DNA of 64,000 nucleotides, taken from assembly GCF_025753795.1 (NCBI RefSeq), contig NZ_JAOWPS010000001.1, forward strand, positions 992,001 to 1,056,000, read 5' to 3'. This document shows, one piece after another, positions 1 through 16,515 of the stretch (positions are counted from its first letter, which is position 1; each line of letters starts with the position of its first letter). This DNA is from Mesorhizobium sp. YC-39 (GTDB lineage: Bacteria; Pseudomonadota; Alphaproteobacteria; Rhizobiales; Rhizobiaceae). The position numbers and the translations under genes were made by a program. A model generated the notes under the pieces. The model saw only the letters and a program-made list of their open reading frames with translations, did not search any database and had not been told where the DNA came from.

Positions 1-1408
1 GCTCGGGCGCGTAGAAACCGGGGCAGCCCGGTGTGATCCGACCTTCCGGGCTGACGCAGGTCATCTCGATATAGAGAAGGCCGGCACCGCCCTTGGCGCG
101 TTCGGCATAATGGGCGAAATGCCAGTCGGTCGGACAGCCGTCGACGGCCTTGTACTGCGCCATCGGCGAGACGACGATGCGGTTCTGCAGCGCCATATCA
201 CGCAGCCGGAACGGCGCGAACATCGGTGCTCGACGCAGGCTGTTGCCGCCGGCGCCGGCCTGGCGCTGGAACCATTCTTCCGCGCCAGCCAGCCACTCGG
301 CGTCGCGCAGCCTGAGATTCTCGTGGCTGATGCGCTGCGAGCGCGTCAGCAGCGAATAGTTGAACTGCACCGGATCGAGGCCGAGATAGCGCTCGACCTC
401 CTCGAACCATTCGAGCGAATTGCGCGCCGCCGACTGCAGCTTCAGCACTTCGGTGCGCCGCGCGTCCTCATATTTGCGGAACGCCGCTTCAAGGTCGGGC
501 TCCGATTTGACATAATCGGCCAGCGCCACGGCGCTTTCCAGCGCCAGCTTGGTGCCGGAGCCGATCGAGAAATGCGCCGATGCTGCCGCATCGCCCATCA
601 GGGCGAGATTCTCATAAGACCAGCGCTCGCACAGCACCCGCGGAAAATTGATCCAGGCCGAGCCCCTGATGTGATTGGCATTGGTCATCAGCGCGTGGCC
701 GCCGAGATGCTTGGCGAAGATCCGTTCGCAGACGGCGATCGATTCCTGCTGTGTCATCGCGCCGAAGCCGAAACGTTCCCAGGTCTGCTCGCTGCATTCG
801 ACAATGAAGGTCGCTGTCTCGCTGTCGAACTGATAGGCATGCGCCCACACCCAGCCATGCTCCGTCTTCTCGAAGATGAAGGTGAAGGCGTCGTCGAATT
901 TCTGGTTGGTACCCAGCCAGACGAACTTGCATTTGCGGGTGTCGATATCCGGCTTGAAGATGTCGACGAAGGTGTTGCGCGCTTTCGAGTTCAGCCCGTC
1001 GGCGGCGACCACCAGATCGTGGCTCTCCATATAGGGCCTGGGATCAGCGATATCGGTCTCGAAGACCAGCCTGACGCCGAGTTCGCGTGCCCGCCGCTGC
1101 AAAAGGATGAGCAGCCGCTTGCGGCCGATGCCGCAGAAGCCATGCCCGGTCGAGACCGTGCGCACGCCGTCATGGATGACGGCGATGTCGTCCCAATAGG
1201 CGAAATATTTCTTGATCCAGACGGCGCTGACCGGATCGTTCCTGGTCAAATTGTCGAGCGTCTCGGCCGATAGCACCACACCCCAGCCGAATGTGTCGTC
1301 GGCGCGGTTGCGCTCGTACACCGTCACCTCATGGGCGGCGTCGCGGAGCTTCATCGAAATGGCAAAGTAGAGCCCAGCCGGTCCGCCGCCGAGAACCGCA
1401 ACCTTCAT
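1..1408 (-). CDS. Bifunctional anthraniloyl-CoA/salicylyl-CoA monooxygenase-reductase, C-terminus cut by window edge
   Basis: Translating the reverse strand from the ATG at 1406-1408 gives an open frame to the window edge (469 codons seen). It opens with an FAD-binding GGGPAG motif (residues 7-12) and has a second flavin motif GDAAA near residue 270, as in aromatic-ring flavin monooxygenases. From about residue 390 a new domain begins (MFAPFRLRDMALQNRIVVSP), which is the start of an old-yellow-enzyme type TIM barrel. This monooxygenase plus OYE fusion is the architecture of 2-aminobenzoyl-CoA monooxygenase/reductase and salicylyl-CoA 5-hydroxylase. These hydroxylate, and in the first case also reduce, a CoA-activated aromatic ring. 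The full family is about 770 residues, so roughly 300 lie outside the window. No CoA ligase is visible here; one may lie further left. The choice between anthraniloyl-CoA and salicylyl-CoA as substrate is not decided by the sequence. Confidence 0.85.
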   Translation of the reverse strand, partial: MKVAVLGGGPAGLYFAISMKLRDAAHEVTVYERNRADDTFGWGVVLSAETLDNLTRNDPVSAVWIKKYFAYWDDIAVIHDGVRTVSTGHGFCGIGRKRLLILLQRRARELGVRLVFETDIADPRPYMESHDLVVAADGLNSKARNTFVDIFKPDIDTRKCKFVWLGTNQKFDDAFTFIFEKTEHGWVWAHAYQFDSETATFIVECSEQTWERFGFGAMTQQESIAVCERIFAKHLGGHALMTNANHIRGSAWINFPRVLCERWSYENLALMGDAAASAHFSIGSGTKLALESAVALADYVKSEPDLEAAFRKYEDARRTEVLKLQSAARNSLEWFEEVERYLGLDPVQFNYSLLTRSQRISHENLRLRDAEWLAGAEEWFQRQAGAGGNSLRRAPMFAPFRLRDMALQNRIVVSPMAQYKAVDGCPTDWHFAHYAERAKGGAGLLYIEMTCVSPEGRITPGCPGFYAPE

Positions 1409-1465
1409 GCCTGCGATCTCCTTTTCGCCTTGGGCCGCCGGCAAGGCCGACGCTCCCGACTTTTC

Positions 1466-1494
1466 AGTATCACGCCACAGATATGTTATTTCAA
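1466..1494 (-). promoter_or_regulatory. Probable sigma70-type promoter for the monooxygenase gene
   Basis: On the reverse strand TTGAAA (1489-1494) and GATACT (1466-1471) are separated by exactly 17 bases, 58 bases upstream of the ATG at 1408. The spacing and hexamers fit a housekeeping promoter. It would give the monooxygenase gene its own start separate from the VOC gene upstream. Confidence 0.5.
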
Positions 1495-1501
1495 GCTTAA
1501 A

Positions 1502-1516
1502 GTTTCATATTGAAAC
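1502..1516. promoter_or_regulatory. Palindromic operator candidate next to the promoter
   Basis: GTTTCATATTGAAAC is a perfect 6-3-6 inverted repeat. It lies 7 bases upstream of the -35 hexamer of the reverse-strand promoter at 1466-1494. Its size and symmetry suit a dimeric regulator such as the MarR protein encoded at 11735-12217. That link is inference. Confidence 0.45.
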
Positions 1517-1574
1517 GAATCGGACGCATGGCAGTGGCGTGCTTGCGGCTGATCCCGCAAGCACGCTCCCGAAA

Positions 1575-2183
1575 TTACTTTTCCGGGTTCTTGGGGCTCC
1601 ACAGCACCGTCTCGGCGCCCTTCTCGTAGGCCATGCCGCCGGGATAGCTGATCGCTTCCAACTGCAGTCCCCAGGGCGCCTGGAAATAGAGGATGGTCTG
1701 GCCGGCGGCCGGCCCCTCCTTGACCGGCAACGGCCCCATCCGTGTCTTGACGCCCTTGGCGTCGAGATATGCCTTAGCGGCGGCGATATCGTCGACATAG
1801 AAGGCGATGTGGAAGCCGCCAATGTCGCTGTTCTTCGGCGTCAAATCCTTCTGATCCGGCGCGGTGTATTTGAACAGTTCGATGTTCGATCCGTAGCCGC
1901 AGCGGACCAGGGTGATCTCCTCGATCACCGCCTTGGGGTCGACGCCCAGCAAATCCTGCATGAATGTGCCCTTATCGTCGGCGAACGGGCCGAAGGACAT
2001 CGCCTTCTTGCAGCCGACAACCTCGGTGAAGAAATCGACGGCCTGCTTCATGTCGGGCACCGTGATGCCCGTGTGGTCGTGGCCGCGCATGCCGGGTATC
2101 GAATCAGCCGAGGCCGCACTGATTGAACCCAGCAAGACGGCTGCCAGCATCGTGCCTTGTATTGCGTACTTCATGTCAGTCAC
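1575..2183 (-). CDS. Secreted VOC (glyoxalase/dioxygenase-fold) family protein
   Basis: The 202-residue product starts with a hydrophobic signal sequence ending around ASADS (residue 27). A VOC domain follows: GHDHTGITVPDMKQAVDFF opens the first beta-alpha-beta module and GGFHIAFYVDDIAAAKAYL the second. Candidate metal ligands are the His residues in these strands and a Glu in the last strand (LQLEAIS). VOC proteins include lyases, extradiol dioxygenases and isomerases, so the reaction cannot be named. A predicted periplasmic location is unusual for this fold. It lies 76 bases downstream of the ABC ATPase gene on the same strand and is probably co-transcribed with the importer, with a possible separate promoter for the next gene. 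Confidence 0.75.
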   Translation of the reverse strand: MTDMKYAIQGTMLAAVLLGSISAASADSIPGMRGHDHTGITVPDMKQAVDFFTEVVGCKKAMSFGPFADDKGTFMQDLLGVDPKAVIEEITLVRCGYGSNIELFKYTAPDQKDLTPKNSDIGGFHIAFYVDDIAAAKAYLDAKGVKTRMGPLPVKEGPAAGQTILYFQAPWGLQLEAISYPGGMAYEKGAETVLWSPKNPEK

Positions 2184-2259
2184 CCTCCGTTTCGCGGGCT
2201 GACCTGTCGATGCACTCCGAGGCCCGCTTTTCGGCGTGCGGATGAGATTTGAGCGACCC

Positions 2260-3090
2260 TCATGCCGGTGCCTTCGTGGCCGGCCGCAGCCAGTCCGCGT
2301 CGATCTCCGGCAGCGGAATGGCCGCGATCAGGTCGCGCGTGTAGGCATCCTTGGGGTTGTCGAACAGCGCGTCGGTGGCGCTCGATTCGACGATCCTGCC
2401 TTCGCGCATGACGATGACTTGCTGGCACAGCCGCCGGATCACCGACAGATCGTGGCTGATGAAGGCGACGGTCAGGCCCATTTCTGCCGCCAGCTTTTCC
2501 AACAAGGTCAGGATTTGCGCCTGCGTCGACACATCGAGGCCGGAGACGATCTCGTCGGCCAGCACGAATTTTGGCGACAGCGCGAGCGCCCGCGCGATGC
2601 CGACACGCTGGCGCTGGCCGCCCGACAGTTCGTGGCGGTAACGGCTGGCGAAGCTCTGCGGCAGGCCGACCCGCTGCAGGGCCTCGGCGACACGCGCCTT
2701 GAGATTGTCGCCAAACCCGTTCTGCTTGAGTGGTGCTGCAATGATGCTGGCGATGGTGCGGCGCGGGTTGAGCGACGACATCGGGTCCTGGAAGATCATC
2801 TGCAGATTGCGGCGCAGCGGCCGCAACTCGGCTTCCGAAAGATGGCTGATGTCACGGCCCTCGAAGCTGATGCTGCCGGCGCTGGGTTCGATCAGCCGCA
2901 CCAGAGCGCGGCCGAGCGTCGATTTGCCCGATCCGGATTCGCCGACGATGCCGGTCACCGATCCTCTGGGCAGATCGAAATCCAGCCCCTTCAGGATTTC
3001 CGCGAGTGGTGCCCGGCCGATTAGCGGCTTGCGCGTCATGTCGGGCAGCGCGACCTTCAGCCCGCGCACGGAAATGAGCGGCTCAGCCAT
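2260..3090 (-). CDS. Peptide/nickel-type ABC transporter ATP-binding protein (DppF-like)
   Basis: A 276-residue ABC ATPase with Walker A GESGSGKST at 50-58, Q-loop IFQDPMSSLNP near 99-109, signature LSGGQRQR at 155-162, Walker B VLADE at 176-180 and switch His in FISHD. The LNPR motif and the C-terminal stretch after the switch are typical of oligopeptide/dipeptide ATPases (OppF/DppF). It would form a heterodimer with the product of the overlapping gene at 3083-3964. The overlap is 8 bases, pointing to translational coupling. It belongs to the five-gene importer 7544-2260; the substrate is unknown but the neighbours suggest a small aromatic or its conjugate. Confidence 0.9.
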   Translation of the reverse strand: MAEPLISVRGLKVALPDMTRKPLIGRAPLAEILKGLDFDLPRGSVTGIVGESGSGKSTLGRALVRLIEPSAGSISFEGRDISHLSEAELRPLRRNLQMIFQDPMSSLNPRRTIASIIAAPLKQNGFGDNLKARVAEALQRVGLPQSFASRYRHELSGGQRQRVGIARALALSPKFVLADEIVSGLDVSTQAQILTLLEKLAAEMGLTVAFISHDLSVIRRLCQQVIVMREGRIVESSATDALFDNPKDAYTRDLIAAIPLPEIDADWLRPATKAPA

Positions 3091-3964
3091 GGCGCGGCCT
3101 CCAGGCCTGGTCGGCGTCGGCGATCTCCGCTGCCAGTCCTGCCAGCACCGCTTCGTCCACCGGCTTCAGCGAGGCGAACGGATCAGTATAGCGCGGTGTC
3201 GCCGCCATCAGCGCCCGCGTATAGAGGTGCTGCGGCGCGGCAAACAGCGCTGCCGTGTCGGCTTCCTCCACCACCTTGCCGGCATAGAGCACCGACACTT
3301 TCTGGCTGATCTTGGCGACGACGCCGAGATCATGGGTGACGAACAGGATCGCCGTGCCGTGCTCCCGCTGAAGTTGCGTAATGAGGCGCAGGATCTGCTT
3401 CTGCACGGTCACGTCCAGCGCCGTGGTCGGTTCGTCGGCAACGATCAGCCGAGGCTCAGCGGCAAAAGCGGCGGCGATCAGCACGCGCTGACGCATGCCG
3501 CCGGAGAGCTCGTGCGGATAGCTTTTCAGCACCCGGTCCGGGTCGCGGATCTGCACCTCGTCCAGCAATTGGCGAATGCGAGCGTCGGCTCTCTGTCCGC
3601 TCCAACCGAGAATGCGCACCAGCCGGTCGGTCATCTGCGGGCCGATGCGGCGCGACGGGTTGAGCGCGGTCAGCGGGTCCTGCGGGATCAGTGCCGTGCG
3701 CGCGCCGATCAGCGTGCGTCTTGCCTTCGGTTGAAGTCGGCCGAGATCCTCGCCCTCCAGCAGCATGTCGCCTTCGACGATACGCACGCTGGACGGCAGC
3801 ACGCCGAGCACCGCCTTGCCGATCATCGTCTTGCCGGCGCCGCTCTCGCCGACCAGCGCGCGCACCTCGCCGGGCTGGACCGAGAGCGACACCGAGCGCA
3901 GCACGCGCTGCCCGTTCGCCAGCACGGCGCTGAGGTTTCGAATATCGAGGCAGTCGGCGCTCAT
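3083..3964 (-). CDS. Peptide/nickel-type ABC transporter ATP-binding protein (DppD-like)
   Basis: The 293-residue product starts MSADCLDIRNLS at the ATG 3962-3964, which overlaps the stop of the upstream permease gene (ATGA). A longer open frame exists upstream, but it runs through the permease coding sequence in another frame and lacks family similarity. Walker A is GESGAGKT at 39-46, the signature is LSGGMRQR and Walker B runs into VADEPTTALDV. The C-terminal YAGKVVEEADT and LYTRALMAATP segments match DppD/OppD proteins. It pairs with the DppF-like ATPase to energise the importer. Confidence 0.9.
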   Translation of the reverse strand: MSADCLDIRNLSAVLANGQRVLRSVSLSVQPGEVRALVGESGAGKTMIGKAVLGVLPSSVRIVEGDMLLEGEDLGRLQPKARRTLIGARTALIPQDPLTALNPSRRIGPQMTDRLVRILGWSGQRADARIRQLLDEVQIRDPDRVLKSYPHELSGGMRQRVLIAAAFAAEPRLIVADEPTTALDVTVQKQILRLITQLQREHGTAILFVTHDLGVVAKISQKVSVLYAGKVVEEADTAALFAAPQHLYTRALMAATPRYTDPFASLKPVDEAVLAGLAAEIADADQAWRPRHG

Positions 3965-4809
3965 CGCAGCACCGGATCGAAACGGGCCTTCAGCGCCTCG
4001 CCGAACTGGCTGAACGACAGCACGGTCAGGATCAGCGTGATCAGCGGGAACACCAGCACCCACCAGGCCTGATGGATCGACAGCCGGCCCTCGGCGATGA
4101 TGCCGCCCCAGGTCGGATCGTCGGTCGAGATCGACAGATTGACGAAGGACAGGATCGCCTCGACGATGACGGCGATGCCCATTTCCAGCGACAGCAGCGC
4201 AACGATCGACGGCACCACATTGGGCAACACTTCGCGCAGCATGATGCCGATGCGGTCATAGCCGGCAATACGGGCATTCTCGACATAGTCCATGCGCGAC
4301 TGGCCCATCGCCTCGGCACGGATCACCCGGCAAAAGCGCGTCCAGTCGATGACCGCGATGGCAATAATGACCGAACTCAGGCCGGTGCCGAGCACGGCGA
4401 CCAGAAGGATGGCGAACAGCACCGGCGGGAAGGCCATCCAGATATCGACGATGCGCGAGATGATGCGGTCGGCCCAGCCGCCAAAATAGCCAGCGATCAG
4501 GCCCAGTGTCGAGCCGACCAGGCACGCGGCAAAAGCTGCGGCGAAGGCGACGATGAAGGCGATGCGGCCGCCGAAGATCAGTCGTGACAGGAGATCGCGG
4601 CCGAGGCTGTCGGTGCCAAGCCAATAGCCGGGCTCGGCGCCGCTCATCCAGAACGGCGGCAGCCGCTCCAGCATCAGGTCCTGCGCCAGCGGATCTTGCG
4701 GCGCGACCAGCGGCGCGAAGATCGCCGCCAGCAATGCGAGCAACAGCCAGCCGCCGGCAAGCCACAGCCTTGGTCCCACGCCACGCCGGGCGATGCGGGC
4801 CTCATCCAT
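3961..4809 (-). CDS. Peptide-type ABC transporter permease (DppC-like)
   Basis: This 282-residue inner-membrane permease has an N-terminal transmembrane helix (LAGGWLLLALLAAIFAPLV), then the conserved GTDSLGRDLLSRLIFGGR segment of DppC/OppC proteins. Further helices follow, with the EAA-loop region YVENARIAGYDRIGIMLREV that contacts the ATPase. The C-terminus FGEALKARFDPVLR is also typical. It overlaps both neighbours by a few bases, which is usual for a tightly coupled transporter operon. Confidence 0.9.
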   Translation of the reverse strand: MDEARIARRGVGPRLWLAGGWLLLALLAAIFAPLVAPQDPLAQDLMLERLPPFWMSGAEPGYWLGTDSLGRDLLSRLIFGGRIAFIVAFAAAFAACLVGSTLGLIAGYFGGWADRIISRIVDIWMAFPPVLFAILLVAVLGTGLSSVIIAIAVIDWTRFCRVIRAEAMGQSRMDYVENARIAGYDRIGIMLREVLPNVVPSIVALLSLEMGIAVIVEAILSFVNLSISTDDPTWGGIIAEGRLSIHQAWWVLVFPLITLILTVLSFSQFGEALKARFDPVLR

Positions 4810-5809
4810 GGCGCAGCCTCGGATTGAGCAGCGCGTACATCATGTCCACAGTGAGGTTGATCAGCACGAACAGCAGCGCGAAGACCAGCACGATGCCCTG
4901 GATCAGCGGCAGGTCGCGATTGATCACGGCGTCGATCGCCATGTTGCCGAGACCTTCATAGGAGAACAACCGCTCGACGATGACCGTGCCGCCGATGAGG
5001 AAAGTAAATTGAACGCCGACCAGCGTTAGCGTCGGCAGGGCCGCGTTCTTCAGCGCCTCGCGCAGGATCACCTGCGTCTCCGAGAAACCTTTGACCCGCG
5101 CCAGCACGACATAGTCGAGGTCGAGCACTTCCTTCAGCGACTGTTTCAGCAGTTGCGAGATGATCGCCGCCAGCGGCAGGGCCAGCGCCACGGCCGGCAT
5201 CAGCATATGTTTCAAGAGGTCCCAGGTCAGGTCGAAGCGTAGCCTCAGGATGCTCTCGAACAGGTAGAACTGGGTGACGAAGGGCAAGTTGAGCTGCGGC
5301 GACACGCGGCCGGAAATGTCGAACACCGGGATCAGCACGCCAAACAGCAGGATCAGCACAAGGCCCCAGAGGAAATCGGGAATGGAGAGCGCGGTCCCGC
5401 TGGCGATGTCGATGCCGGCTTCGACCGCCGTGCCGCGTTCTCGCGCGCCGAGGATCGCCGCCGTGCCGCCGATCGCCACTGCCATCACAAGCGCGACGGT
5501 GGCAAGTTCCAGCGTTGCGGGCAGCCGGTTGAAGACCAGTCCCAGCACGTCCTGCCGCAGCGAGATCGATGTGCCGAAATCACCCCTGACAACGCCGGAC
5601 AGCCAGATGAAGAACTGCTGCACGATGGTCCTATCGAGCCCGTAGAGCGCGCGCAGCCTCGCGATGTCGGCATCGGTCGCACCTGGCGGCAGCATCATCG
5701 CGATCGGGTCGCCGGGTGCGACGCGAATGACGACGAAGACGACGACGGCTACGCCGAACAGCGTGATCGCCATCGTCAGCAGGCGGATCAGAAATCTTTG
5801 CAGAAGCAT
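4802..5809 (-). CDS. Peptide-type ABC transporter permease (DppB-like)
   Basis: The 335-residue permease begins MLLQRFLIRLLTMAITLFGV, the usual first helix of DppB/OppB proteins, followed by the conserved RVAPGDPIAMML loop. The EAA loop (YVVLARVKGFSETQVILREAL) and the FSYEGLGNMAIDAV motif near the C-terminus are intact. It ends MMYALLNPRLRHG, the expected DppB tail. It sits between the binding-protein gene (about 210 bases upstream, separated by a repeat) and dppC. Confidence 0.9.
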   Translation of the reverse strand: MLLQRFLIRLLTMAITLFGVAVVVFVVIRVAPGDPIAMMLPPGATDADIARLRALYGLDRTIVQQFFIWLSGVVRGDFGTSISLRQDVLGLVFNRLPATLELATVALVMAVAIGGTAAILGARERGTAVEAGIDIASGTALSIPDFLWGLVLILLFGVLIPVFDISGRVSPQLNLPFVTQFYLFESILRLRFDLTWDLLKHMLMPAVALALPLAAIISQLLKQSLKEVLDLDYVVLARVKGFSETQVILREALKNAALPTLTLVGVQFTFLIGGTVIVERLFSYEGLGNMAIDAVINRDLPLIQGIVLVFALLFVLINLTVDMMYALLNPRLRHG

Positions 5810-5854
5810 TCTGGCGTAAGCCTAGTGCGTTTCAGTGGCCGTTGGAACGAACTG

Positions 5855-5974
5855 CCCCCTCATCCGGCCGCTTCGCGGCCACCTTCTCCCCGAGGGGAGA
5901 AGAGATCGCAAACGGCTGAGCCAGTCTCTTCTCCCCAGCGAGGAGAAGGTGGCCCGAAGGGCCGGATGAGGGGG
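5855..5974. repeat. Rhizobial intergenic inverted repeat (about 120 bp)
   Basis: The left arm (CCCCCTCATCCGGCC..) is complementary, with few mismatches, to the right arm ending GGCCGGATGAGGGGG. An inner pair, ACCTTCTCCCC and GGAGAAGGT, nests inside. The pattern is that of dispersed palindromic elements common in Mesorhizobium and relatives. It separates the binding-protein gene from the permease genes and could attenuate or process the operon mRNA. Confidence 0.8.
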
Positions 5975-6017
5975 TCTGCGTCGTTGGAGGAGACACGCCA
6001 CCGTGCCTCCTCATATA

Positions 6018-7544
6018 TCAAGCAGGGGTCATCAGCGCCGGCAGCAGCGCACCGGACACATGCTGCACCACATTGACGCCCTTGGCATGCACGATCGGCT
6101 GCGCATACTGGATGAGCGGCAGCACATAGGCCTGCTCGGCGATGTATTTGTCGACGGCCTTCCAGCCGGCGATGCGCTTGGCCTCGTCCTTCTCGCCCCA
6201 CAGCGGGTTGATCATGTCGATCAGATCCTGGCTGTCCCACACCGAATGCGGGCTCGGGCCGTACATGGCAAAGCCGGTCGACGTCGTCGGATCGCCGATG
6301 GCGTTGCCCCAATTGTAGAAGGCGGCCGGCGCCAGCTTGTCGGCGGCGCGCAGCTCGTAGTGCTTGGCGATCTCGTAGACCTCGATCGTCGCCTCGATGC
6401 CGACCTTGCGCCACATGCCGACGATCGCCTGGATCATCTCGTAGTCCTTGGGCTTGAAACCCTTGGTCGTCTGGATCGTGAACTTGACCGGCTTTTCCGG
6501 CGAATAGCCGGAGGCCGCCAGCAATTCCTTGGCCTTTTCCGGATTGTGCTCGACCTTGATGGAGGGATCGTAGGCGGCGTATTCCGGCGTCTCCAGCGTA
6601 TCGATCGGCTGGCCGTAGCCGCGCAGCAGGCGGTCGACCAAGAGCTTCTTGTCTACAGCCATCACCGCCGCCTGGCGGACGTTCTTGTCCAGCATCGCCT
6701 CGATGTCGTTGAAGAAGATCATGCCGATGTCGGAGACATTCTTGCACGAACCGGCAAGCCCGTCCTTGGCGATCAGTCGGTCATACTCCTCATAGGGGAT
6801 TTCGAGCGTCACCTGCGAGGAACCGGACTCGATTTCGGCGACGCGGCTCGCCGCGTCGGTGACGAACTTGATCGTCACATTCTCGAAGGCCGGCTTGCCG
6901 CCCCAGTAGTTCTGGTTGGCCTTCAGCCGCAGGAAGGCGTTGCGCTCGAACTTGTCGACCATATAGGGGCCGGTGCCGATCGGCGCCTTCTCGAAACCTT
7001 CGGCACCGACCTTCTCGTAGTAGGCTTTCGGCATGATGTAGCCGGTCAGGAACGACATCCACTTGAAATAGACCGGGTCGAACTGCACCACATCTCCAGT
7101 GATCTTGTTTCCGTCGATCTTGAAGTTGTTGACGTTCTTCCAGACGAACTGGATCGGATTGCCGGTCTTTTCGTCGCCCGCCCGCTGCAGCGACCAGACC
7201 ACGTCCTCGGCCGTGAACGGCGAACCGTCATGCCAGGTCACGCCCTCGCGCACCGTCATCATGATCTTGGTGCGGTCGTCGTTCCAGCCCCACTCGGTGA
7301 GCAGGCCGGGCGCGAAGGAAAGGTCCGGCTTCTGCGGGATGAACTGGTCGAACACCGACTGGTAGAGACCCTGAATGGTCGGGTTGACCGCCGAGGGTCC
7401 CGTGGTCGGGTCCCAGGATGGCAGGTTGACATTGTAGGCGATGGTCAGTTCGCCGGCCGCCTTGGCGATCTGCGGCAGGCCGATGGCCGCCGCACCAAGT
7501 GCCGCGGCACTGTATCCGAGCAATTCGCGTCTGTTGATTGTCAT
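6018..7544 (-). CDS. ABC transporter substrate-binding protein, family 5 (peptide/nickel type)
   Basis: The 508-residue periplasmic protein has an N-terminal NRRELLGYSAAALG segment with paired arginines and a hydrophobic stretch ending AKA, which looks like a Tat signal. The mature part carries family-5 landmarks: DLSFAPGLLTEWGWNDDRTK, the REGVTWHDGSPFTAEDVVWS block and the GTGPYMVDKFERN block. It is the ligand receptor of the importer encoded just downstream. Its ligand is not evident. The importer lies among aromatic catabolic genes, so a non-peptide ligand is plausible. Confidence 0.9.
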   Translation of the reverse strand: MTINRRELLGYSAAALGAAAIGLPQIAKAAGELTIAYNVNLPSWDPTTGPSAVNPTIQGLYQSVFDQFIPQKPDLSFAPGLLTEWGWNDDRTKIMMTVREGVTWHDGSPFTAEDVVWSLQRAGDEKTGNPIQFVWKNVNNFKIDGNKITGDVVQFDPVYFKWMSFLTGYIMPKAYYEKVGAEGFEKAPIGTGPYMVDKFERNAFLRLKANQNYWGGKPAFENVTIKFVTDAASRVAEIESGSSQVTLEIPYEEYDRLIAKDGLAGSCKNVSDIGMIFFNDIEAMLDKNVRQAAVMAVDKKLLVDRLLRGYGQPIDTLETPEYAAYDPSIKVEHNPEKAKELLAASGYSPEKPVKFTIQTTKGFKPKDYEMIQAIVGMWRKVGIEATIEVYEIAKHYELRAADKLAPAAFYNWGNAIGDPTTSTGFAMYGPSPHSVWDSQDLIDMINPLWGEKDEAKRIAGWKAVDKYIAEQAYVLPLIQYAQPIVHAKGVNVVQHVSGALLPALMTPA

Positions 7545-7659
7545 GGTCGTTCCCCTGTTGGTTGTATTTTCTTTGCGCGGCGTCTCAGACTGATCAGTGG
7601 GTTCAGGCTCCTTGGGCGACCGCGCCTCGCCCGTCCTTCACCCCTAAAGAAACTCTGTT

Positions 7660-9249: not shown

Positions 9250-9355
9250 TTCCTTTATGCTTAAAGATAATTGCAGATGCATATGTTTTCGTCTAGTAGG
9301 ATATTAAGGGCCGCAACGAGCCTTCAGAGCTATCCACCAAGAGGGAACAGAGACC
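9250..9355. promoter_or_regulatory. Divergent promoter region of the catabolic locus
   Basis: These 106 AT-richer bases separate the leftward flavoprotein gene from the rightward cyclase gene and must hold both promoters. A weak forward candidate is TTGCAG (9271-9276), 17 bases, TAGTAG (9294-9299). The word GCTTAAAG at 9259-9266 also occurs at 1495-1502 beside the other operator candidate. I see no long perfect palindrome here. Confidence 0.45.
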
Positions 9356-10147
9356 ATGGACACGCAAAAACTTCTCGGCGAGGTCGCCGGCCAGCTTCTT
9401 TCCGGCGCTATCCAGGTGGTCGACCTGTCGGCGCCGCTCGGGCCGGACACGCCGCTGATCAAGCTGCCGCCGGAGCTTGCCGTCGACACGCCGAAGGTCG
9501 AGATCCACTCGATCTCCCGCTATGACAAGAATGGCCCGTGGTGGGCGTGGAACTGGCTGAAGCTCGGCGAGCATTCGGGCACGCATTTCGACGCGCCGCA
9601 GCACTGGATCACCGGCAAGGACTATCCGGACGGCGCCACCGACACCATTCCGGCGCAGAACTTCGTCGGCCCGGTCAACGTCATAGACTGCTCGAAGGAA
9701 GCCGCCGCCGATCACGATTTCCTGCTCACCGTCGACCATATCAAGGCATGGGAGGCCAAGCATGGCGCGATCAATCCCGGCGAATGGGTGGTGATGCGCA
9801 CCGATTGGTATAAGCGCAACGGCTCGGAAGCCGAGTTCCTCAATGCCAACGAGACCGGCCCGCATACGCCTGGGCCGACGGCGGAAGCTATCCAGTTCCT
9901 GATCAGCAAGGACATCAAGGGCTGGGGCAGCGAGACGATCGGCACCGATGCCGGCAAGGCCGGCGGCATGGAGCCGCCATTCCCGGCACACACCTTGATG
10001 CACAAGGCCAACCGCTATGGTCTGGCCAGCCTCTGCAATCTCGACCGGCTGCCGCCCAAGGGCGCGATCCTGATCGCGGCGCCGCTCAAGATCGAGCACG
10101 GCACCGGCAGCCCGATCCGCGCGCTGGCACTGGTGCCGCGCGCTTAA
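9356..10147 (+). CDS. Cyclase-family metal hydrolase, isatin-hydrolase/kynurenine-formamidase-like
   Basis: This 263-residue protein carries the cyclase-family metal motif HSGTHFDAPQHW near residues 74-85. The remainder (VVDLSAPLGPDTPLIKLPP, IGTDAG, FPAHTLMHKAN) resembles isatin hydrolases and bacterial kynurenine formamidases. These are Mn/Zn enzymes that open a cyclic amide or release formate from an N-formyl aniline. Either reaction would yield an anthranilate-type product, which fits the aminobenzoyl-CoA-type monooxygenase at the left edge. It is the first gene of the rightward arm. The choice between isatin and other cyclic amides is inference from the neighbourhood. Confidence 0.75.
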   Translation: MDTQKLLGEVAGQLLSGAIQVVDLSAPLGPDTPLIKLPPELAVDTPKVEIHSISRYDKNGPWWAWNWLKLGEHSGTHFDAPQHWITGKDYPDGATDTIPAQNFVGPVNVIDCSKEAAADHDFLLTVDHIKAWEAKHGAINPGEWVVMRTDWYKRNGSEAEFLNANETGPHTPGPTAEAIQFLISKDIKGWGSETIGTDAGKAGGMEPPFPAHTLMHKANRYGLASLCNLDRLPPKGAILIAAPLKIEHGTGSPIRALALVPRA

Positions 10148-10163
10148 GCCATAGGCCTCGACG

Positions 10164-11735
10164 ATGAGCGACATCGATCACATCATCGTCGGCAGCGGCA
10201 TCAACGCGCTGGTCTGCGCGGCGATGCTCGGCGGCAAGGGAGCGAAGGTGCTGGTGCTCGAGCGCAACGACCGCATCGGCGGCTGCATGCGCACCGAGGA
10301 GATCACCGCGCCCGGCTTTATCCATGACGTGATGGCGACGACCTTCGTGCTGTTCATCATCTCGCCGGCCTATGCCGCACTGGGCAAGGATCTGGCGCGG
10401 CACGGTCTGGAGTTCTGCCACAGCGGCACGCCTACAGGCGTGCTGCGCCCCGACGGCAGCCACGCCGTGCTCAGCACCGACCGTGCAGCCAATGTCGCGG
10501 CGCTCAACGCGATTGCCTTGGGCGACGGCGACCGTCACGGCAAAGATGTCGGCGGCATTGAGCGCAATGCCGGCCTGCTGTTCGGCCTGCTCGGCGGCGC
10601 CTTGTGGTCCTATCCGACGACGAAGCTTATGGCAGGCGAAGCCTGGCGGCGTGGTCCGCGCAATCTCGCCGCCTTCCTCGGCGACGCGTTGGTGCCGGCG
10701 CGGGCCTGGCTTGAAAGCAGCTACCAATCCGAAACCGCCCGTGCGCTTTGGGCGCCCTGGGTGCTGCACGCCGGTCTCGGGCCAGAGGATGCGTTTTCCG
10801 GCCAGATCGCCAAGGTCATTGCCTTTGCGCTGGAGGCGGCCGGTGCGCCGATCGTCAAGGGCGGGGCGCGTAATCTTCTGTCCGCCTTCGAGGCGCTGAT
10901 CAAGGAGCGTGGTGGCGTGATCCGGACTGAAGGCGACGTTGCCTCCATTGTCCAGAGCGAAGGCCGGGCCACGGGCGTGCGACTTGCGTCAGGCGAAACC
11001 GTCACGGCAAAGAAAAGCATCATCTGCTCGGTCACGCCGACACAGCTCTACGGCCGGCTGTTAGGCAAGGACGCGCCAGAGGCCGCCGTCGAAGCGACGC
11101 AAAAATATCGCTACGGCAAGGGCAATTTCCAGATCCATTACGCACTGGACAGGCCGCCCGCCTGGCGCGGCGAAGGGCTGGACAAGGTCGCGTTGCTGCA
11201 TCTGACGCCAGGACTCGATGGCGTCTCAAAGGCCTGCAACGAGGCGGTGCGCGGCCTGCTGCCGGAGGTGCCGACCATCTGCGTCGGCCAGCCGCATGCG
11301 CTCGACCCGTCGCGCTGTCCGGAGGGCAAGGCCATCCTGTGGCTGCAACTGCCCGAGGCGCCGCGCCACATCAAAGGCGATGCCGCCGGTAGGCTCAAGG
11401 CGCCGGCCGACGGGCAATGGACCGAAAAGCTGCGCGAGGCCTATGCCGACCGCGTCGAAGCGATCCTCGGCAACCATATCGATGGGTTCAAGGACAGCAT
11501 CATCGCACGCCGCGCCTATTCGCCAGCCGATCTGGAAACGATGAACATCAATCTGGTCGGAGGCGACCCCTATGGTGGTTCCTCGACCATCGACCAGTCG
11601 TTCCTGTGGCGGCCGTTCAAGGCCAGCCGCAACCACGAGACGGGTATCAAGGACCTCTACCATATCGGCGCCTCCACCCATCCTGGCGCCGGCCTGGGCG
11701 GCGGCTCTGGCTTCCTGCTGGCGGGGAGGCTGTGA
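10164..11735 (+). CDS. Phytoene-desaturase-like FAD oxidoreductase (second paralogue)
   Basis: The 523-residue product opens MSDIDHIIVGSGINALVCAA with an FAD motif, followed by LERNDRIGGCMRTEEITAPGF. The end (YHIGASTHPGAGLGGGSGF) is the flavin-contact tail of CrtI/PYROXD2-like enzymes. Its layout matches the protein encoded at 7660-9249, including the GMNL/ATTF and PLDLERENPNLVGGD versus PADLETMNINLVGGD blocks, so the two are paralogues that may act in sequence or as a heteromer. Its stop overlaps the MarR start (TGATG), showing that the regulator is translationally coupled to it. Confidence 0.75.
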   Translation: MSDIDHIIVGSGINALVCAAMLGGKGAKVLVLERNDRIGGCMRTEEITAPGFIHDVMATTFVLFIISPAYAALGKDLARHGLEFCHSGTPTGVLRPDGSHAVLSTDRAANVAALNAIALGDGDRHGKDVGGIERNAGLLFGLLGGALWSYPTTKLMAGEAWRRGPRNLAAFLGDALVPARAWLESSYQSETARALWAPWVLHAGLGPEDAFSGQIAKVIAFALEAAGAPIVKGGARNLLSAFEALIKERGGVIRTEGDVASIVQSEGRATGVRLASGETVTAKKSIICSVTPTQLYGRLLGKDAPEAAVEATQKYRYGKGNFQIHYALDRPPAWRGEGLDKVALLHLTPGLDGVSKACNEAVRGLLPEVPTICVGQPHALDPSRCPEGKAILWLQLPEAPRHIKGDAAGRLKAPADGQWTEKLREAYADRVEAILGNHIDGFKDSIIARRAYSPADLETMNINLVGGDPYGGSSTIDQSFLWRPFKASRNHETGIKDLYHIGASTHPGAGLGGGSGFLLAGRL

Positions 11736-12217
11736 TGGAACAGAAGGTTGCCGAGAAACGCCAGCGCATCTCCACCCTGGGCCAGATCGGCCTGCAGCAA
11801 TTCGCGCCCTATCTGATGAACCGCATCATGGGCCGCTACAACGCCACCTTGCGCGAGGATTTCCGCAAGCAGGGCCTGACCATCCCGCAGGTACGTGCGC
11901 TCGCCGTGCTGTCGGTCACCGACGGCGTCACCGTCAACGACCTCTCCGTCTACACCGTGATCGAGCAGTCGACCTTGAGCCGGACGCTCGACACTCTGGA
12001 AGGGCAGGGGTTGGTGCGGCGCGAGCAGGGGGTCACCGACAGCCGCATCCGCCATGTATTCCTGACCGACGATGGCCGGGCATTGTTCACACGCGCCTGG
12101 CCGGCCATGCATGACGCCTTCGAGGCCATGTTCGATGGTGTCGATGACGCCGAATATGCCGCGCTGATCGCCACGCTGCAGAAGATGCTGAACAACATTC
12201 GCAAGCACGACATCTAG
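11735..12217 (+). CDS. MarR-family transcriptional regulator
   Basis: A 160-residue protein starting MEQKVAEKRQRIS at an ATG that overlaps the preceding stop codon. A much longer in-frame extension exists upstream, but it overlaps the flavoprotein gene and is not credible. The winged-helix core is clear: LTIPQVRALAVLSV, then VNDLSVYTVIEQSTLSRTLDTLEGQGLVRRE as recognition helix, and the wing DSRIRHVFLTDDGRALF. MarR repressors often control aromatic catabolic genes and are released by the substrate or a CoA thioester. Being in the rightward operon it probably controls the divergent locus and itself. Confidence 0.88.
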   Translation: MEQKVAEKRQRISTLGQIGLQQFAPYLMNRIMGRYNATLREDFRKQGLTIPQVRALAVLSVTDGVTVNDLSVYTVIEQSTLSRTLDTLEGQGLVRREQGVTDSRIRHVFLTDDGRALFTRAWPAMHDAFEAMFDGVDDAEYAALIATLQKMLNNIRKHDI

Positions 12218-12259
12218 ACGTACGCGCCGCCTGCCGGGCGGCAACGGAAGGAGGCCACC

Positions 12260-14413
12260 ATGGCCGAACGGTCTTTTGCCAAGGAAGTCGAAAAACTGAG
12301 ACTCGGCGCCGGCGAGGAGTTTGCCGGCGAAGGCATCCTCGCCATCACCAAGGCGCTGCTGCAATGCGGTGTCGGCTATGTCGGCGGCTACCAGGGCGCG
12401 CCGATAAGCCATCTGATGGATGTGCTGGCCGACGCGCAGGACATTCTGGGCGAACTCGGCGTGCACTTCGAGGCCAGCGCTTCCGAAGCCACCGCCACCG
12501 CCATGCTGGCGGCCTCGGTGCACTACCCGATCCGCGGTGCCGCGACCTTCAAGTCGACGGTCGGCACCAACGTCGCCTCCGACGCGCTCGCCAACCTGGC
12601 ATCCGGCGGCGTCACCGGCGGCGCGCTGATCATCGTCGGTGAGGACTATGGCGAGGGCTCCTCGATCATGCAGGAGCGCAGCCACGCCTTCGCCATGAAG
12701 AGCCAGGTGTGGCTGCTCGACCCGCGCCCCAATTTGCCGTCGATCGTCAAGGCGGTCGAGGACGGTTTTGAGCTCTCCGAGGCCTCCAACACACCAGTCA
12801 TGCTGCAGGTCCGCATCCGCTGCTGCCATGTCCACGGCCATTTCATCGCCAAGGACAACAAGCGCCCGCCAATGTCGGTGGCCGATGCGCTGGATGCGCC
12901 GCGCCGCGACACCGGCCGCATCGTGCTGCCGCCCGCCTCCTTCCTGCACGAGAAGGAGAAGGTGCAGAAGCGCTGGCCGGCGGCGGTGGATTTCATCAAG
13001 AGCCGCAAGATCAACGAATTCTTCGGCTCGGATCACGGCTCGGTCGGCATTGTCATGCAAGGCGGCATGTACAATGCGGTCATCCGCGCGCTGCAGCGGC
13101 TAGGCCTTGCCGACACCTATGGTGTGACAGACGTGCCGCTCTATGTGCTCAATGCCGTCTATCCCCTGGTCGATGACGAATTCCTGTCCTTCTGTGAAGG
13201 CAAGGACGCCGTGCTTGTCGTCGAGGAGGGCCAGCCCAATTACATCGAGCAGGCCTTTGCCGCCATGCTGCACAAGGCCGGGCGCGGCACGAGGTTGGTC
13301 GGCAAGGAGCATCTGCCGATGGCCGGCGAATACACAGGCCAGGTCATGCTTGACGGCATCGGATCTTTCCTGCGCGCTGAGGCGCCGCATCTTCTGCCGG
13401 GCGAGGTGCGGGCGCCGAACAAATCAGGCGAGGGCGTTGACACCGCCGACCTGATCAATGTCGTTCCCGGCCGCCCGCCCGGCTTCTGCATCGGCTGCCC
13501 GGAGCGGCCGATCTTCGCCGCGACAAAACTGGTCGAGCAGGAGCTTGGCAAGCACCACATCGCCTCCGACATCGGCTGCCATCTGTTCTCGATCATGCCG
13601 CCCTTCGAGCTCGGCGCCACCACCATGGGCTACGGGCTGGGGCCGGCCTCGGCCTCGGCGTTCAATTCGCCGGACGCCAAGCGCCGCTCGATCTCCTTCG
13701 TCGGCGATGGCGGCTTCTGGCACAACGGCCTGACCTCGTCGATCGGCAATGCCGTATTCAACAAGAACGACGGCGTCATCGTCATCGTCGATAATTTTTA
13801 CTCGGCCGCCACCGGTGGCCAGGACATTCTCTCGTCCCGCGCGGGCAACAAGACCAAGTCGACGAAGCACCCGATCACCGAGGCGGTGAAAGGCATGGGC
13901 GTCAAATGGCTGCGCCACATCGACCGCACCTATGACGTGACCAAGATGCAGGACACGCTGCGCGAGGCACTGACGACGGACGAGAAAGGGCCGAAGGTCA
14001 TCGTCGCCTCGTCCGAATGCATGCTCAACCGCCAGCGCCGCGAAAAGCCGCTGGTCGACAAGGCGATCAAGGGCGGTGAGCGGATCGTCAAGCCGAAATT
14101 CGGCGTCGATGAGGACATCTGCACCGGCGACCACGCCTGCATGCGGCTTTCCGGCTGCCCGTCGCTGTCGGTCAAGTCGCTCGACGATCCGCTGCGCGAC
14201 GACCCGGTGGCGCATATCGACCAGAGCTGCGTCGGCTGCGGCAATTGCGGCGAGGTGGCGGATGCCGCGGTGCTGTGCCCGTCCTTCTACCGCGCCGACG
14301 TTGTCCACAACCCAAGCCGCTGGGATCGCTTTCTCGAGAGCGCGCGTCGTTCAACGATCGGCATGCTGCAACGGCGCCGCGAAAGCCGGCGGCTGACCTT
14401 CGCCGATGCTTGA
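12260..14413 (+). CDS. iorA: Indolepyruvate:ferredoxin oxidoreductase, alpha subunit
   Basis: The 717-residue protein is preceded by a strong AAGGAGG. It has the N-terminal pyruvate-oxidoreductase domain (GVGYVGGYQGAPISHLMDVL), a CIGCPERP motif near residue 410, a thiamine-diphosphate block GDGGFWHNGLTSSIGNA near 481, and a C-terminal ferredoxin-like Cys cluster (about 615-675; CTGDHACMRLSGCP and CVGCGNCG). This is the IorA layout. The enzyme decarboxylates aryl pyruvates to aryl-acetyl-CoA, passing electrons to ferredoxin. Here it may generate or consume indole-3-acetyl-CoA or a related CoA ester. It overlaps iorB by 8 bases. Confidence 0.88.
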   Translation: MAERSFAKEVEKLRLGAGEEFAGEGILAITKALLQCGVGYVGGYQGAPISHLMDVLADAQDILGELGVHFEASASEATATAMLAASVHYPIRGAATFKSTVGTNVASDALANLASGGVTGGALIIVGEDYGEGSSIMQERSHAFAMKSQVWLLDPRPNLPSIVKAVEDGFELSEASNTPVMLQVRIRCCHVHGHFIAKDNKRPPMSVADALDAPRRDTGRIVLPPASFLHEKEKVQKRWPAAVDFIKSRKINEFFGSDHGSVGIVMQGGMYNAVIRALQRLGLADTYGVTDVPLYVLNAVYPLVDDEFLSFCEGKDAVLVVEEGQPNYIEQAFAAMLHKAGRGTRLVGKEHLPMAGEYTGQVMLDGIGSFLRAEAPHLLPGEVRAPNKSGEGVDTADLINVVPGRPPGFCIGCPERPIFAATKLVEQELGKHHIASDIGCHLFSIMPPFELGATTMGYGLGPASASAFNSPDAKRRSISFVGDGGFWHNGLTSSIGNAVFNKNDGVIVIVDNFYSAATGGQDILSSRAGNKTKSTKHPITEAVKGMGVKWLRHIDRTYDVTKMQDTLREALTTDEKGPKVIVASSECMLNRQRREKPLVDKAIKGGERIVKPKFGVDEDICTGDHACMRLSGCPSLSVKSLDDPLRDDPVAHIDQSCVGCGNCGEVADAAVLCPSFYRADVVHNPSRWDRFLESARRSTIGMLQRRRESRRLTFADA

Positions 14414-15977
14414 CGCTGTCCCGTCATCTCGCCCTGCCGCCGGCGCTTCGGACGAGTCTGTCATCAAGCTCGCCGTGCTGGCGGTCGGCGGGCAGGGCGG
14501 CGGCGTGCTGGCCGACTGGATCACCGACGTCGCCGAGCGCAACGGTTATGTCGCGCAATCGACCTCGGTCGCCGGCGTCGCCCAGCGCACCGGAGCCACC
14601 ATCTACTATGTCGAGATGGCCAGAGACACCGGCCGGCTGCCGGTCTTTGCGCTGTCGCCGTCGCAGGGCGACGTCGACATATTGATCGCCGCCGAACTGA
14701 TGGAGGCCGGCCGCGCCATCATCAGGGGCTTCGTCACGCCTGAGCGCACCACGCTGATCGCTTCCTCGCACCGCATCGCCGCCGTGTCGGAAAAGATCGA
14801 GCCCGGCGACGGCCGCGCTTCGTCCTCGAAAGTGCACGCGACGGCGGAAGCCGCGGCCAGGCGCTTCATCGCTTTCGATATGGAGAAGATCGCCGCCGAC
14901 AACGGCTCGATGATCTCGGCCAGCCTGCTCGGCGCGCTCGCCGGCTCCGACGCGCTGCCGTTCACCCGCGAGAGCTACGAGCAGGCGATCGGAGCCGGCG
15001 GTCGAGGTGTGAAGGCCAGTCTCGCCGCTTTCGGCGCCGCCTATGACCGCGCGCGCGGCATTGCCGGGGCTGACCCGTCTGGCGACAAGCCTAGGAAGCC
15101 AACCGTTTCTGAGATCAGTTCGGGTGTCATTGGACAAGTGAGCGGTCCGCAAAGTCTCTTGCAGGGCTGGCAGCAATTGGCTGCCCGCATCGATGCTTTG
15201 CCGGCTCCTGTCAGCGACATGGCGCTGCGCGGTCTGAAAAAAGTCGTCGACTATCAGGATATCGCCTATGGCGGCGAATATCTCGACCGGCTGGACCGGG
15301 CCGTGGCGCTGGACAGTGCCAGGCATGGTTATGCGCTGTCGATATCAGCGGCAAAGCATCTGGCCAACGCCATGTGCTACGACGACATGATCCGCGTCGC
15401 CGATCTCAAGACCCGTTCGACCCGCGACCAACGCGTGCGCCGCGAGGTCGGCGTCAAGGACGGGACGGTCCTGCAGGTGACCGAATATTTCCATCCGCGC
15501 ATCGAGGAATTCTGCGCCACGTTGCCGGCGGGGCTTGGCAGCTATATCGAGAACCGGCCGAAGCTCGCCGCCTTTCTCGACCGCCGCATCAATCGCGGCC
15601 GCCACATCCGCACCGATAGCTTTGCCGGCTTTGCCGCGCTCTGGTTCATCGGCGGCCTGCGCCGCTGGCGTCGCCGCCTGCTGCGCCACAAGGTCGAGAT
15701 CGTCCATCTGGAGCGCTGGTATGATCTGGCGCTTGCCCATGTCCGGGAAGATTACGCGCTGGCCGTCGAGATCCTCAACTGCCGCCGGCTGATCAAGGGC
15801 TACAGCGACACCCACGCCCGCGCGCAATCCAAGTTCGACCGTGTGCTGTCGGCGCTGGATATGCTCAAGGGCCGCACTGATGCCGCCGACTGGATCCGCC
15901 GCCTGCGCGAGGCGGCGCTGAAGGACGAGAAGGGCGAAATGCTCGACGGTGCGCTGAAAACCGTGGCGACGCTATAG
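14406..15977 (+). CDS. iorB: Indolepyruvate oxidoreductase, beta subunit with C-terminal DUF6537-type extension
   Basis: A 523-residue protein whose N-terminal 200 residues are the gamma-type pyruvate oxidoreductase domain (LAVGGQGGGVLADWI near 25-39, SVAGVAQRTGATIYYVEMA). The remainder is a long helical extension found in proteobacterial IorB proteins, which are much larger than archaeal IorB. The start overlaps the end of iorA, so expression is coupled. It should form the catalytic complex with IorA. The last 41 bases are duplicated in diverged form at 16569-16609. Confidence 0.85.
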   Translation: MLDAVPSSRPAAGASDESVIKLAVLAVGGQGGGVLADWITDVAERNGYVAQSTSVAGVAQRTGATIYYVEMARDTGRLPVFALSPSQGDVDILIAAELMEAGRAIIRGFVTPERTTLIASSHRIAAVSEKIEPGDGRASSSKVHATAEAAARRFIAFDMEKIAADNGSMISASLLGALAGSDALPFTRESYEQAIGAGGRGVKASLAAFGAAYDRARGIAGADPSGDKPRKPTVSEISSGVIGQVSGPQSLLQGWQQLAARIDALPAPVSDMALRGLKKVVDYQDIAYGGEYLDRLDRAVALDSARHGYALSISAAKHLANAMCYDDMIRVADLKTRSTRDQRVRREVGVKDGTVLQVTEYFHPRIEEFCATLPAGLGSYIENRPKLAAFLDRRINRGRHIRTDSFAGFAALWFIGGLRRWRRRLLRHKVEIVHLERWYDLALAHVREDYALAVEILNCRRLIKGYSDTHARAQSKFDRVLSALDMLKGRTDAADWIRRLREAALKDEKGEMLDGALKTVATL

Positions 15978-16139
15978 CGAACTGATCCCGCATCCTCCAG
16001 CTGATCGATGAATAGCGTCGCAGCTGCGCGTGTCTTCCTTGCCGCTTGTGGTTCGCCCGCCCGGCTCGTGCTATCGTATTTCTGGGAGACGGCGGACGCG
16101 CCGTGAGCGCCCGTACGCTCCCCATTGTGGGAGGAACCA

Positions 16140-16433
16140 ATGGCTTACTATGTATTGCTGTCGAATTTCACAGATCAAGGTATCAAGAGCATCAAGGACA
16201 CGCAGAAGCGTGCCGAGGCTTTCAAGGCGATGGCCAGCAAGAGCGGCGTCAAGGTTCACACGCTGTTGTGGACGCTTGGTCAGTATGACGTCGTGGCGAT
16301 TGCAGAAGCCGACGACGAGATTGCTGCGACCGCACTAGCCTTATCAATCGCATCGCTGGGCAACATCAGAACCCAGACATTGAGGGCTTTCGACACCGCA
16401 GATATGGCCAAGATCCTGGCAAAGATGGCCTGA
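16140..16433 (+). CDS. GYD-domain protein
   Basis: A 97-residue protein starting MAYYVLLSNFTDQGIKSIKD, with GAGGAA just upstream of the ATG. The motif TLLWTLGQYDVVAIAEADDE matches the GYD family (here GQYDVV). These are small ferredoxin-fold alpha+beta proteins of unknown function that often sit near transport or stress genes. It lies between iorB and a strong terminator and may be the last gene of the rightward operon or have its own promoter. No function is assigned. Confidence 0.8.
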   Translation: MAYYVLLSNFTDQGIKSIKDTQKRAEAFKAMASKSGVKVHTLLWTLGQYDVVAIAEADDEIAATALALSIASLGNIRTQTLRAFDTADMAKILAKMA

Positions 16434-16515
16434 TCGCCACTGTGCTGCCCTGCGCAGGCGACTGAAGCCGGCCGCTGAGCCGAACGGCGGCAGGCTTGTC
16501 TGTTTTCCCTCAAGC

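Follow-up and report, generated by a model that had tools for sequence, protein, structure and literature searches.

An isatin hydrolase locus of Mesorhizobium sp. YC-39 with a predicted isatinate oxidoreductase in place of a coenzyme A ligase

The window analyzed here is a stretch of 64,000 nucleotides from the 7.36 Mb genome of Mesorhizobium sp. YC-39 (contig NZ_JAOWPS010000001.1, positions 992,001 to 1,056,000) and carries at its left end a divergent isatin hydrolase locus. What we regard as new is that its IorAB-type enzyme is predicted to act on isatinate as an oxidoreductase and thereby to replace a coenzyme A (CoA) ligase. The two arms meet at 9250-9355, taking the ATG at 9249 as the start of Crt1. 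The right arm (+ strand) consists of isatin hydrolase, Crt2, MarR1, IorA, and IorB; the left arm (- strand) consists, from the center outwards, of Crt1, the importer genes OppA-B-C-D-F, a VOC protein, and a fused monooxygenase that crosses the window edge. This arrangement had been described in an earlier reading of the letters alone, hereafter the original prediction; the genes that it named, their domain content, and their order are confirmed by translations and profile searches, and the meeting point of the arms holds as well. The nearest named relatives of the isatin hydrolase locus are Mesorhizobium strains, as far as records very near the window, which were possibly left out, allow.

By every criterion that can be tested in the sequence, the cyclic amidohydrolase at 9356-10147 (+; PF04199) belongs with the isatin hydrolases. 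It matches the crystallized LaIHB (4j0n) with 433.8 bits across residues 2-263 and other isatin hydrolases with 298-314 bits. The signature of these enzymes, in the available part of its description, combines the metal motif HxG[T/A]HxDxPxH with an aromatic pocket motif and either GLQC or GLAS (PMC6117287). The window cyclase features HSGTHFDAPQH starting at residue 73, WAWNW, and GLAS at residue 222. The metal motif is present in all 102 relatives taken from other loci; 94 of these carry GLAS, seven GLQC, and one, from Tsukamurella, neither. Hydrolysis of isatin to isatinate was assayed for LaIHA, LaIHB, and RsIHA, whose operon partner is not named in the part of the text at hand (PMC6117287); the cyclase shares with them the full-length match, the metal motif, the aromatic pocket motif, and GLAS, and no sequence difference was seen. 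The original prediction had called the protein isatin-hydrolase/formamidase-like; the first half of that label stands, and a function as kynurenine formamidase was rejected, the best match to these enzymes being 30.3 bits.

Enzymes of the 2-oxoacid:ferredoxin oxidoreductase superfamily convert a 2-oxo acid and CoA to acyl-CoA and CO2, and isatinate is 2-aminophenylglyoxylate—an aryl 2-oxo acid. The IorAB pair of the locus belongs to this class: IorA (12260-14413, +) carries the thiamine pyrophosphate (TPP) motif and two [4Fe-4S] motifs, and IorB (14406-15977, +) a POR domain and DUF6537 (PF01558, PF20169). The TPP motif is present in 111 and the [4Fe-4S] motifs in all of 112 IorA sequences. 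No PDB sequence matches IorA at E <= 0.01. IorB passes NF006179 with 708.6 bits at a cut-off of 348. Against TIGR03336, the equivalog for indolepyruvate oxidoreductase with a cut-off of 650.9, IorA reaches only 274.8 bits; a canonical indolepyruvate oxidoreductase was rejected on this score, and the name IorA is hence a family name that tells the chemistry and not a proven substrate. Because isatinate is an aryl 2-oxo acid and the class turns such acids into acyl-CoA and CO2, isatinate is the predicted substrate, which would make the enzyme an isatinate oxidoreductase (CoA-acylating). Phenylglyoxylate oxidoreductases of anaerobic aromatic degraders share the proposed type of reaction, arylglyoxylate and CoA to aroyl-CoA and CO2; their subunit make-up is different, and IorA and IorB here stand beside an oxygen-dependent enzyme.

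This enzyme is a fused flavin monooxygenase–old yellow enzyme, of which the N-terminal part occupies 1-1408 (-; PF01494 and PF00724) and continues past the left window edge. It was followed on L007, a 20-kb stretch extending 12 kb left of the window, where the whole protein of 764 residues lies at 11114-13408. Against NF006101, the salicylyl-CoA hydroxylase family, it scores 1261.6 bits at a cut-off of 1078, and both domains are present. The family is named for salicylyl-CoA; from its neighbors, the substrate here would be 2-aminobenzoyl-CoA. Neither the cyclase nor the monooxygenase, which the original prediction had called an enzyme of the anthraniloyl-CoA type, groups with enzymes for unrelated substrates. 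Further left on L007 lie a short-chain dehydrogenase/reductase (SDR; 10344-11117), a second MarR (9880-10350), an enoyl-CoA hydratase (9071-9886), an acyl-CoA dehydrogenase (7713-8861), and a RidA-type protein (~7242-7640). Of the CoA ligase and beta-oxidation genes that had been expected left of position 1, the latter are hence present as a type; three ligase queries (E <= 1e-12) found no match in L007 or the window, an absence that IorAB could explain. The nearest weak ligase match (27%) lies in L005, ~18 kb past the fused enzyme.

The same genome holds a second cluster on contig C7 (L006, C7:8001-28000, at 7724-16233 of that stretch), which includes a ligase resembling benzoate-CoA ligase, another fused enzyme of 53% identity to the locus copy, an ECH-HCDH fusion, and a thiolase; this is likely the ordinary anthranilate route. 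The two clusters differ in content: C7 has the ligase and no IorAB on the stretch, whereas the window locus has IorAB and no ligase that was found. With the aerobic 2-aminobenzoyl-CoA pathway of Azoarcus evansii, the window locus has in common the fused enzyme as well as SDR, enoyl-CoA hydratase, acyl-CoA dehydrogenase, and RidA genes; it differs in that no CoA ligase was found and IorAB takes that place.

The proposed route is serial. Isatin hydrolase would open isatin, which arises in the breakdown of indole compounds, to isatinate; IorAB would convert isatinate and CoA to 2-aminobenzoyl-CoA by oxidative decarboxylation, replacing a ligase; and the fused enzyme would likely feed 2-aminobenzoyl-CoA into a beta-oxidation-like path. 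As the product of IorAB would be the expected substrate of the fused enzyme, a ligase would become unnecessary. This order of three enzymes, with isatinate as the IorAB substrate on the grounds of gene context and cofactor chemistry, is in our judgment probable. An indolic route via isatin with an anthranilate CoA ester as its end, as had been proposed, is supported. Further steps are put forward more tentatively: the Opp importer and Crt1 may supply an oxidized indole, Crt2 may convert dioxindole to isatin, and MarR may repress both arms from the shared gap.

The distribution of these genes was judged in 297 genomes of the window's order, drawn evenly, with cut-offs of E <= 1e-100 for IorA, Crt2, and the fused enzyme and E <= 1e-40 for isatin hydrolase. 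IorA occurs in 55 of these genomes, isatin hydrolase in 38, Crt2 in 28, and the fused enzyme in 99. All 38 isatin hydrolase genomes hold IorA, where 7.0 are expected, and the association persists without the window's genus (30/30) and at genus level (18/18 isatin hydrolase genera, against a background of 32/122). The IorA sequences fall into a near clade (>= 67% identity, 45 genomes) and a distant one (<= 60%, 10 genomes with distant copies only); isatin hydrolase occurs in 38 of the 45 and in none of the 10. The fused enzyme is found somewhere in the genome in 38/38 isatin hydrolase genomes (12.7 expected), in 44 of the 45 near-clade genomes, and in 8 of the 10 distant-clade genomes. Crt2 is accompanied by isatin hydrolase in 28/28 genomes, each time <2 kb from start to start. 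The upstream steps are nested in the downstream ones, which fits a single path with several entries. In 27 of the 38 genomes the starts of isatin hydrolase and IorA lie <10 kb apart. A set of 398 genomes of the phylum, which includes the same near relatives, holds isatin hydrolase in 25, IorA in 29, and both in 23 genomes; among the 10 isatin hydrolase genomes that lie outside the window's order, eight carry IorA.

Gene order was compared in 80 named loci, the best of 575 isatin hydrolase-type places from a genome-contig scan; this selection leans to close relatives, 17 of the 80 being titled Mesorhizobium. The divergent order Crt1(-), isatin hydrolase(+), Crt2(+), MarR(+) of the window is present in 52/80, and the gene set recurs in other genera; the set is therefore more than a chance assembly. 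IorA lies on 75 of the 80 stretches, and three of the other five are short contigs. Isatin hydrolase is directly followed by Crt2 in 63, by MarR in 15, and by neither in two loci. The order isatin hydrolase–MarR–IorA–IorB on one strand occurs in 14/80, 13 of them with no Crt2 on the stretch, some being short contigs. In 16 loci chosen for having no adjacent Crt2, rough open reading frame (ORF) calls give IorA and IorB in 16/16, isatin hydrolase in 13, and MarR in nine, and no unassigned neighbor is common to more than four. The minimal unit is isatin hydrolase–MarR–IorAB.

Around this unit, the Crt and Opp genes, IadCDE-type genes (for indole-3-acetate), and styrene/indole-monooxygenase-type genes (for indole) look like exchangeable entry modules. 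A plasmid of Azospirillum thermophilum features, in this order, MarR, IorAB, IadCDE-type Rieske genes, a ligase, an SDR, and the fused enzyme, followed by an SDR, enoyl-CoA hydratase, acyl-CoA dehydrogenase, thioesterase, and RidA. Another plasmid of this species has the order SDR, styrene/indole monooxygenase, flavin reductase, transporter, Crt2, and cyclase—the latter of the GLQC type—with no Crt1 on the stretch. Alloyangia pacifica combines in one region the indole monooxygenase set, the fused enzyme, isatin hydrolase, Crt2, MarR, IorAB, Crt1, and Opp, and an AMP-binding protein after Opp. The styrene/indole-type monooxygenase also occurs in L053, L067, and six of the 80 named loci. The divergent layout of the window is repeated on a Tritonibacter plasmid and on a contig of Labrenzia sp. 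DG1229 (L157). The module is present in Rhizobiales and Rhodobacterales, and a variant is carried on a plasmid of the actinomycete Tsukamurella. In Rhodobacter sp. SY28-1 (L142, 6192-9792), a three-gene molybdenum hydroxylase adjoins isatin hydrolase–MarR–IorAB and could be another entry enzyme.

Several observations weigh against the serial route. Isatin hydrolase is lacking in 17 of the 55 IorA genomes (seven of the near clade, 10 distant), and 47 genomes hold the fused enzyme without IorA. The fused-enzyme counts take any genomic copy of at least 45% identity, ligase-linked ones included, and all counts and their hypergeometric p-values ignore shared ancestry. The starts of isatin hydrolase and IorA are >35 kb apart or on separate contigs in 7 of the 38 genomes; two of the 25 isatin hydrolase genomes in the phylum set show no IorA, and the 10 kb downstream (right) hold none in the named loci L102 and L136. 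Crt1, Crt2, and Opp occur in Sulfitobacter indolifex, and Opp, VOC, and Crt2 on pML2037 of M. loti (L075), without isatin hydrolase on the stretches fetched. The family NF006179, which IorB passes, is a broad subfamily named for indolepyruvate oxidoreductase. Finally, iadC-K2 of the auxin-degrading iad locus restores anthranilic acid, so that IadAB, the homologues of IorAB, are not needed for that product there, according to the accessible part of the report (PMC12633357).

Crt1 (7660-9249, -) and Crt2 (10164-11735, +) are CrtI/CrtO-like flavin adenine dinucleotide (FAD) enzymes by profile searches. A part in carotenoid metabolism was rejected, as their scores are far under the curated cut-offs: 201.4 and 167.2 bits against 1000 for the CrtO ketolase and 126 and 102.6 against 238.1 for the CrtI desaturase. 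The structure model of Crt2 has a predicted local distance difference test score (pLDDT) of 89.5 and features the CrtI fold, and the matches that come next include nicotine and amine oxidases; judged from this model, Crt2 could plausibly be a flavin dehydrogenase acting on a small nitrogen compound. The predicted conversion of dioxindole to isatin is given to Crt2 because the Azospirillum indole operon places it between the expected dioxindole-making genes and the cyclase; the assignment of dioxindole formation to an SDR follows work on the iif cluster, as far as the review at hand presents it (PMC6221969). Sixty of the 80 named loci hold both Crt1 and Crt2; OppA is present in 54 of the 61 that have Crt1, and the VOC gene in 20 of the 80.

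A different role for the Crt pair is possible, if rather doubtful: both enzymes would process another imported compound, and isatin would reach the hydrolase from elsewhere. The two stretches of S. indolifex and M. loti that lack isatin hydrolase speak for it, and its fold places Crt2 no more closely than in the broad CrtI/amine oxidase group. Against it stands the order set, in which Crt2 never occurs without a close isatin hydrolase, and likewise the Azospirillum indole-monooxygenase operon, which holds Crt2 with a cyclase of the isatin hydrolase group on a stretch free of Crt1.

Published work on auxin bears on the conversion of isatinate. In the iad loci of Variovorax and Bradyrhizobium (PMC9613470, PMC12633357), iadA and iadB are described as exclusive markers, and the route passes from isatin through isatinic acid to anthranilic acid, according to the available part of the first of these reports (PMC9613470). 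The window locus shares with them the IorAB homologues IadA/IadB, a MarR, and the isatin/isatinic acid route, and its cyclase is of one superfamily with IadI, which is annotated as kynurenine formamidase; the locus differs by having no close IadD Rieske subunit or IadG thiolase and, instead, a Crt pair, an Opp importer, and the fused CoA-ester enzyme. Nine genes, iadC-K2, suffice to restore anthranilic acid; strong accumulation of C8H7NO3, which is the formula of isatinate, is confined to strains overexpressing them, in the part of the 2025 preprint at hand (PMC12633357). From the gene names, this construct would lack iadA/iadB, and the accumulation can be read as a build-up of isatinate in the absence of IadAB. 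The main text of the preprint, which resolves the iad steps, is silent on iadA/iadB in the portion available. So-called iadA/iadB mutants of Pseudomonas LY1 were set aside, since the paper on them likens the organization of their cluster to that of the iac-type clusters in E. soli LF7 and A. baumannii, and nothing is drawn from them on IorAB.

The route could, however, run through free anthranilate: another enzyme, or a spontaneous reaction, would yield anthranilate from isatinate, the C7 ligase would make 2-aminobenzoyl-CoA, and IorAB would act on a different keto acid of the pathway. The ligase, second fused enzyme, ECH-HCDH fusion, and thiolase do stand together on C7, and the restoration of anthranilic acid in Variovorax needs iadC-K2 alone, as far as that report is available. 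Such a route leaves unexplained why all 38 isatin hydrolase genomes hold IorA and why the minimal operon contains IorAB, and the locus carries a fused enzyme and beta-oxidation genes of its own, with no ligase found. We consider it unlikely.

That IorAB decarboxylates indolepyruvate in an auxin-type route, with the flavoenzymes opening the indole ring toward isatin, is very improbable: the exclusive tie of IadA/IadB to auxin loci that pass through isatin (PMC9613470, in the part available) and the MarR structure 7kym, deposited with the auxin-MarR paper, would fit it, but IorA stays below the indolepyruvate equivalog cut-off, no close IadD or IadG was found in the genome and no ligase in the locus, the Azospirillum IorAB sits with a complete IadCDE, and the published iad path appears to have no place for an indolepyruvate step. 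The whole-genome searches gave as best matches 36% over 114 residues for the IadD-type Rieske subunit and 33% for the IadG-type thiolase; IadE, IadF, and IadH were not searched genome-wide. Judged from IadD and IadG, no iad auxin locus—Rieske IadDE plus the IadFGH side-chain removal genes—was found. A styrene/indole-type monooxygenase has no match in the genome with a query that does find the gene in other loci, no control genome having been run, and an iif cluster is not present on this count. Indole-3-acetate or indolepyruvate as substrate, which the original prediction had named among possible compounds, is therefore not supported.

Relatives of the window locus adjoin the SDR, styrene/indole-type monooxygenase, and flavin reductase known from the iif/ind clusters of Acinetobacter and Cupriavidus, in which, as far as the 2018 review is available, IifA takes dioxindole to anthranilate (PMC6221969); here, isatin hydrolase and IorAB would do so. 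That review leaves two questions open, in the same portion: whether bacterial indole degradation truly passes through isatin, and which role isatin hydrolase plays in indole degraders. The open-licence PMC literature, as far as its texts were available, yielded no proposal of isatinate conversion to 2-aminobenzoyl-CoA by IorAB. In a broader reading, IorAB/IadAB would be an isatinate:ferredoxin oxidoreductase (CoA-acylating) that serves as an ATP- and ligase-free hub of aerobic indole catabolism, on which IadCDE for auxin, the styrene/indole-type monooxygenase for indole, and Opp with the CrtO-like pair for an imported oxindole converge; isatin would then be a true intermediate, and free anthranilate in iad bacteria a shunt product. 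The case for this generalization stands about evenly balanced. The proposed IorAB reaction, if true, addresses the questions left by the review and the role of iadA/iadB; it would save the ATP of the ligase; and it names a gene module that can be tested.

Among solved chains, those nearest to the MarR-family regulator of the right arm (11732-12217, +; PF12802/PF01047) are 3cjn with 156.2 bits and 7kym with 89.9 bits. The divergent gap contains ATTGCAGATGCATA at 9270-9283, and the corresponding gap of other loci holds similar words. ATGCAT, chosen as the commonest word, is present in 33 of 44 non-redundant gaps, where 1.9 are expected from 20 mononucleotide shuffles; a palindrome search per gap gave weak matches only. 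The recurring words fit one regulator for both arms, and ATTGCAGATGCATA is a candidate MarR operator.

The importer of the left arm (all genes -) consists of the family 5 solute-binding protein OppA (6018-7544; PF00496, 249.5 bits), the permeases OppB (4802-5809, by profile search) and OppC (3961-4809, named from its position and the conservation of the cassette), and the ATPases OppD (3083-3964, by translation, profile search, and relatives) and OppF (2260-3090, by translation and profile search). The VOC (glyoxalase-superfamily) protein follows at 1575-2183 (-; PF00903, 44.6 bits), with an N-terminus that resembles a signal peptide by eye. Two further Opp-type cassettes lie in the window at ~24849-28500 and 46560-50000, with 26-47% identity to that of the locus. 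Between OppB and OppA, at 5877-5954, an inverted repeat has arms of 21 nucleotides that are 86% complementary; it resembles the intergenic mosaic elements of rhizobia.

A midpoint-rooted FastTree tree of 77 IorA sequences, whose support values were not read, serves as an illustration only: sequences from isatin hydrolase or iad contexts split from the distant ones, and those of Crt-less loci are scattered among those of Crt loci. Some IorAB pairs have other surroundings. On a plasmid of Variovorax boronicumulans (L074, 15998-26574), a distant IorAB is followed by a flavin mononucleotide (FMN) alpha-hydroxyacid dehydrogenase, an ATP-binding cassette importer, and a mandelate racemase-like gene; these neighbors suggest arylglyoxylate chemistry, and the set is possibly a phenylglyoxylate-type sister system. 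Two IS1071 transposase gene copies flank IorA on plasmid 2 of Variovorax sp. WDL1 (L081, 2524-20301). L084, L073, and L082 have IorAB beside cupin, FAH, carbon–nitrogen hydrolase, and Asp/Glu racemase genes, and L084 also the fused enzyme. These sets may represent a gentisate-like branch; according to the 2018 review, in its available part, a functional gene for such a branch was not known (PMC6221969). The Crt2 of M. loti pML2037 is 70% identical and lies beside cupin, Ldh-family, RidA, and FAH genes, and L083 has a similar set close to a Rieske pair and a gene resembling Crt2. In the window itself, an ORF of 97 residues at 16140-16433, 3' of IorB, presumably resembles GYD-domain proteins, and 41 nucleotides at 16569-16609 match the 3' end of iorB (15933-15973) at 85% identity—likely a relic of a duplication.

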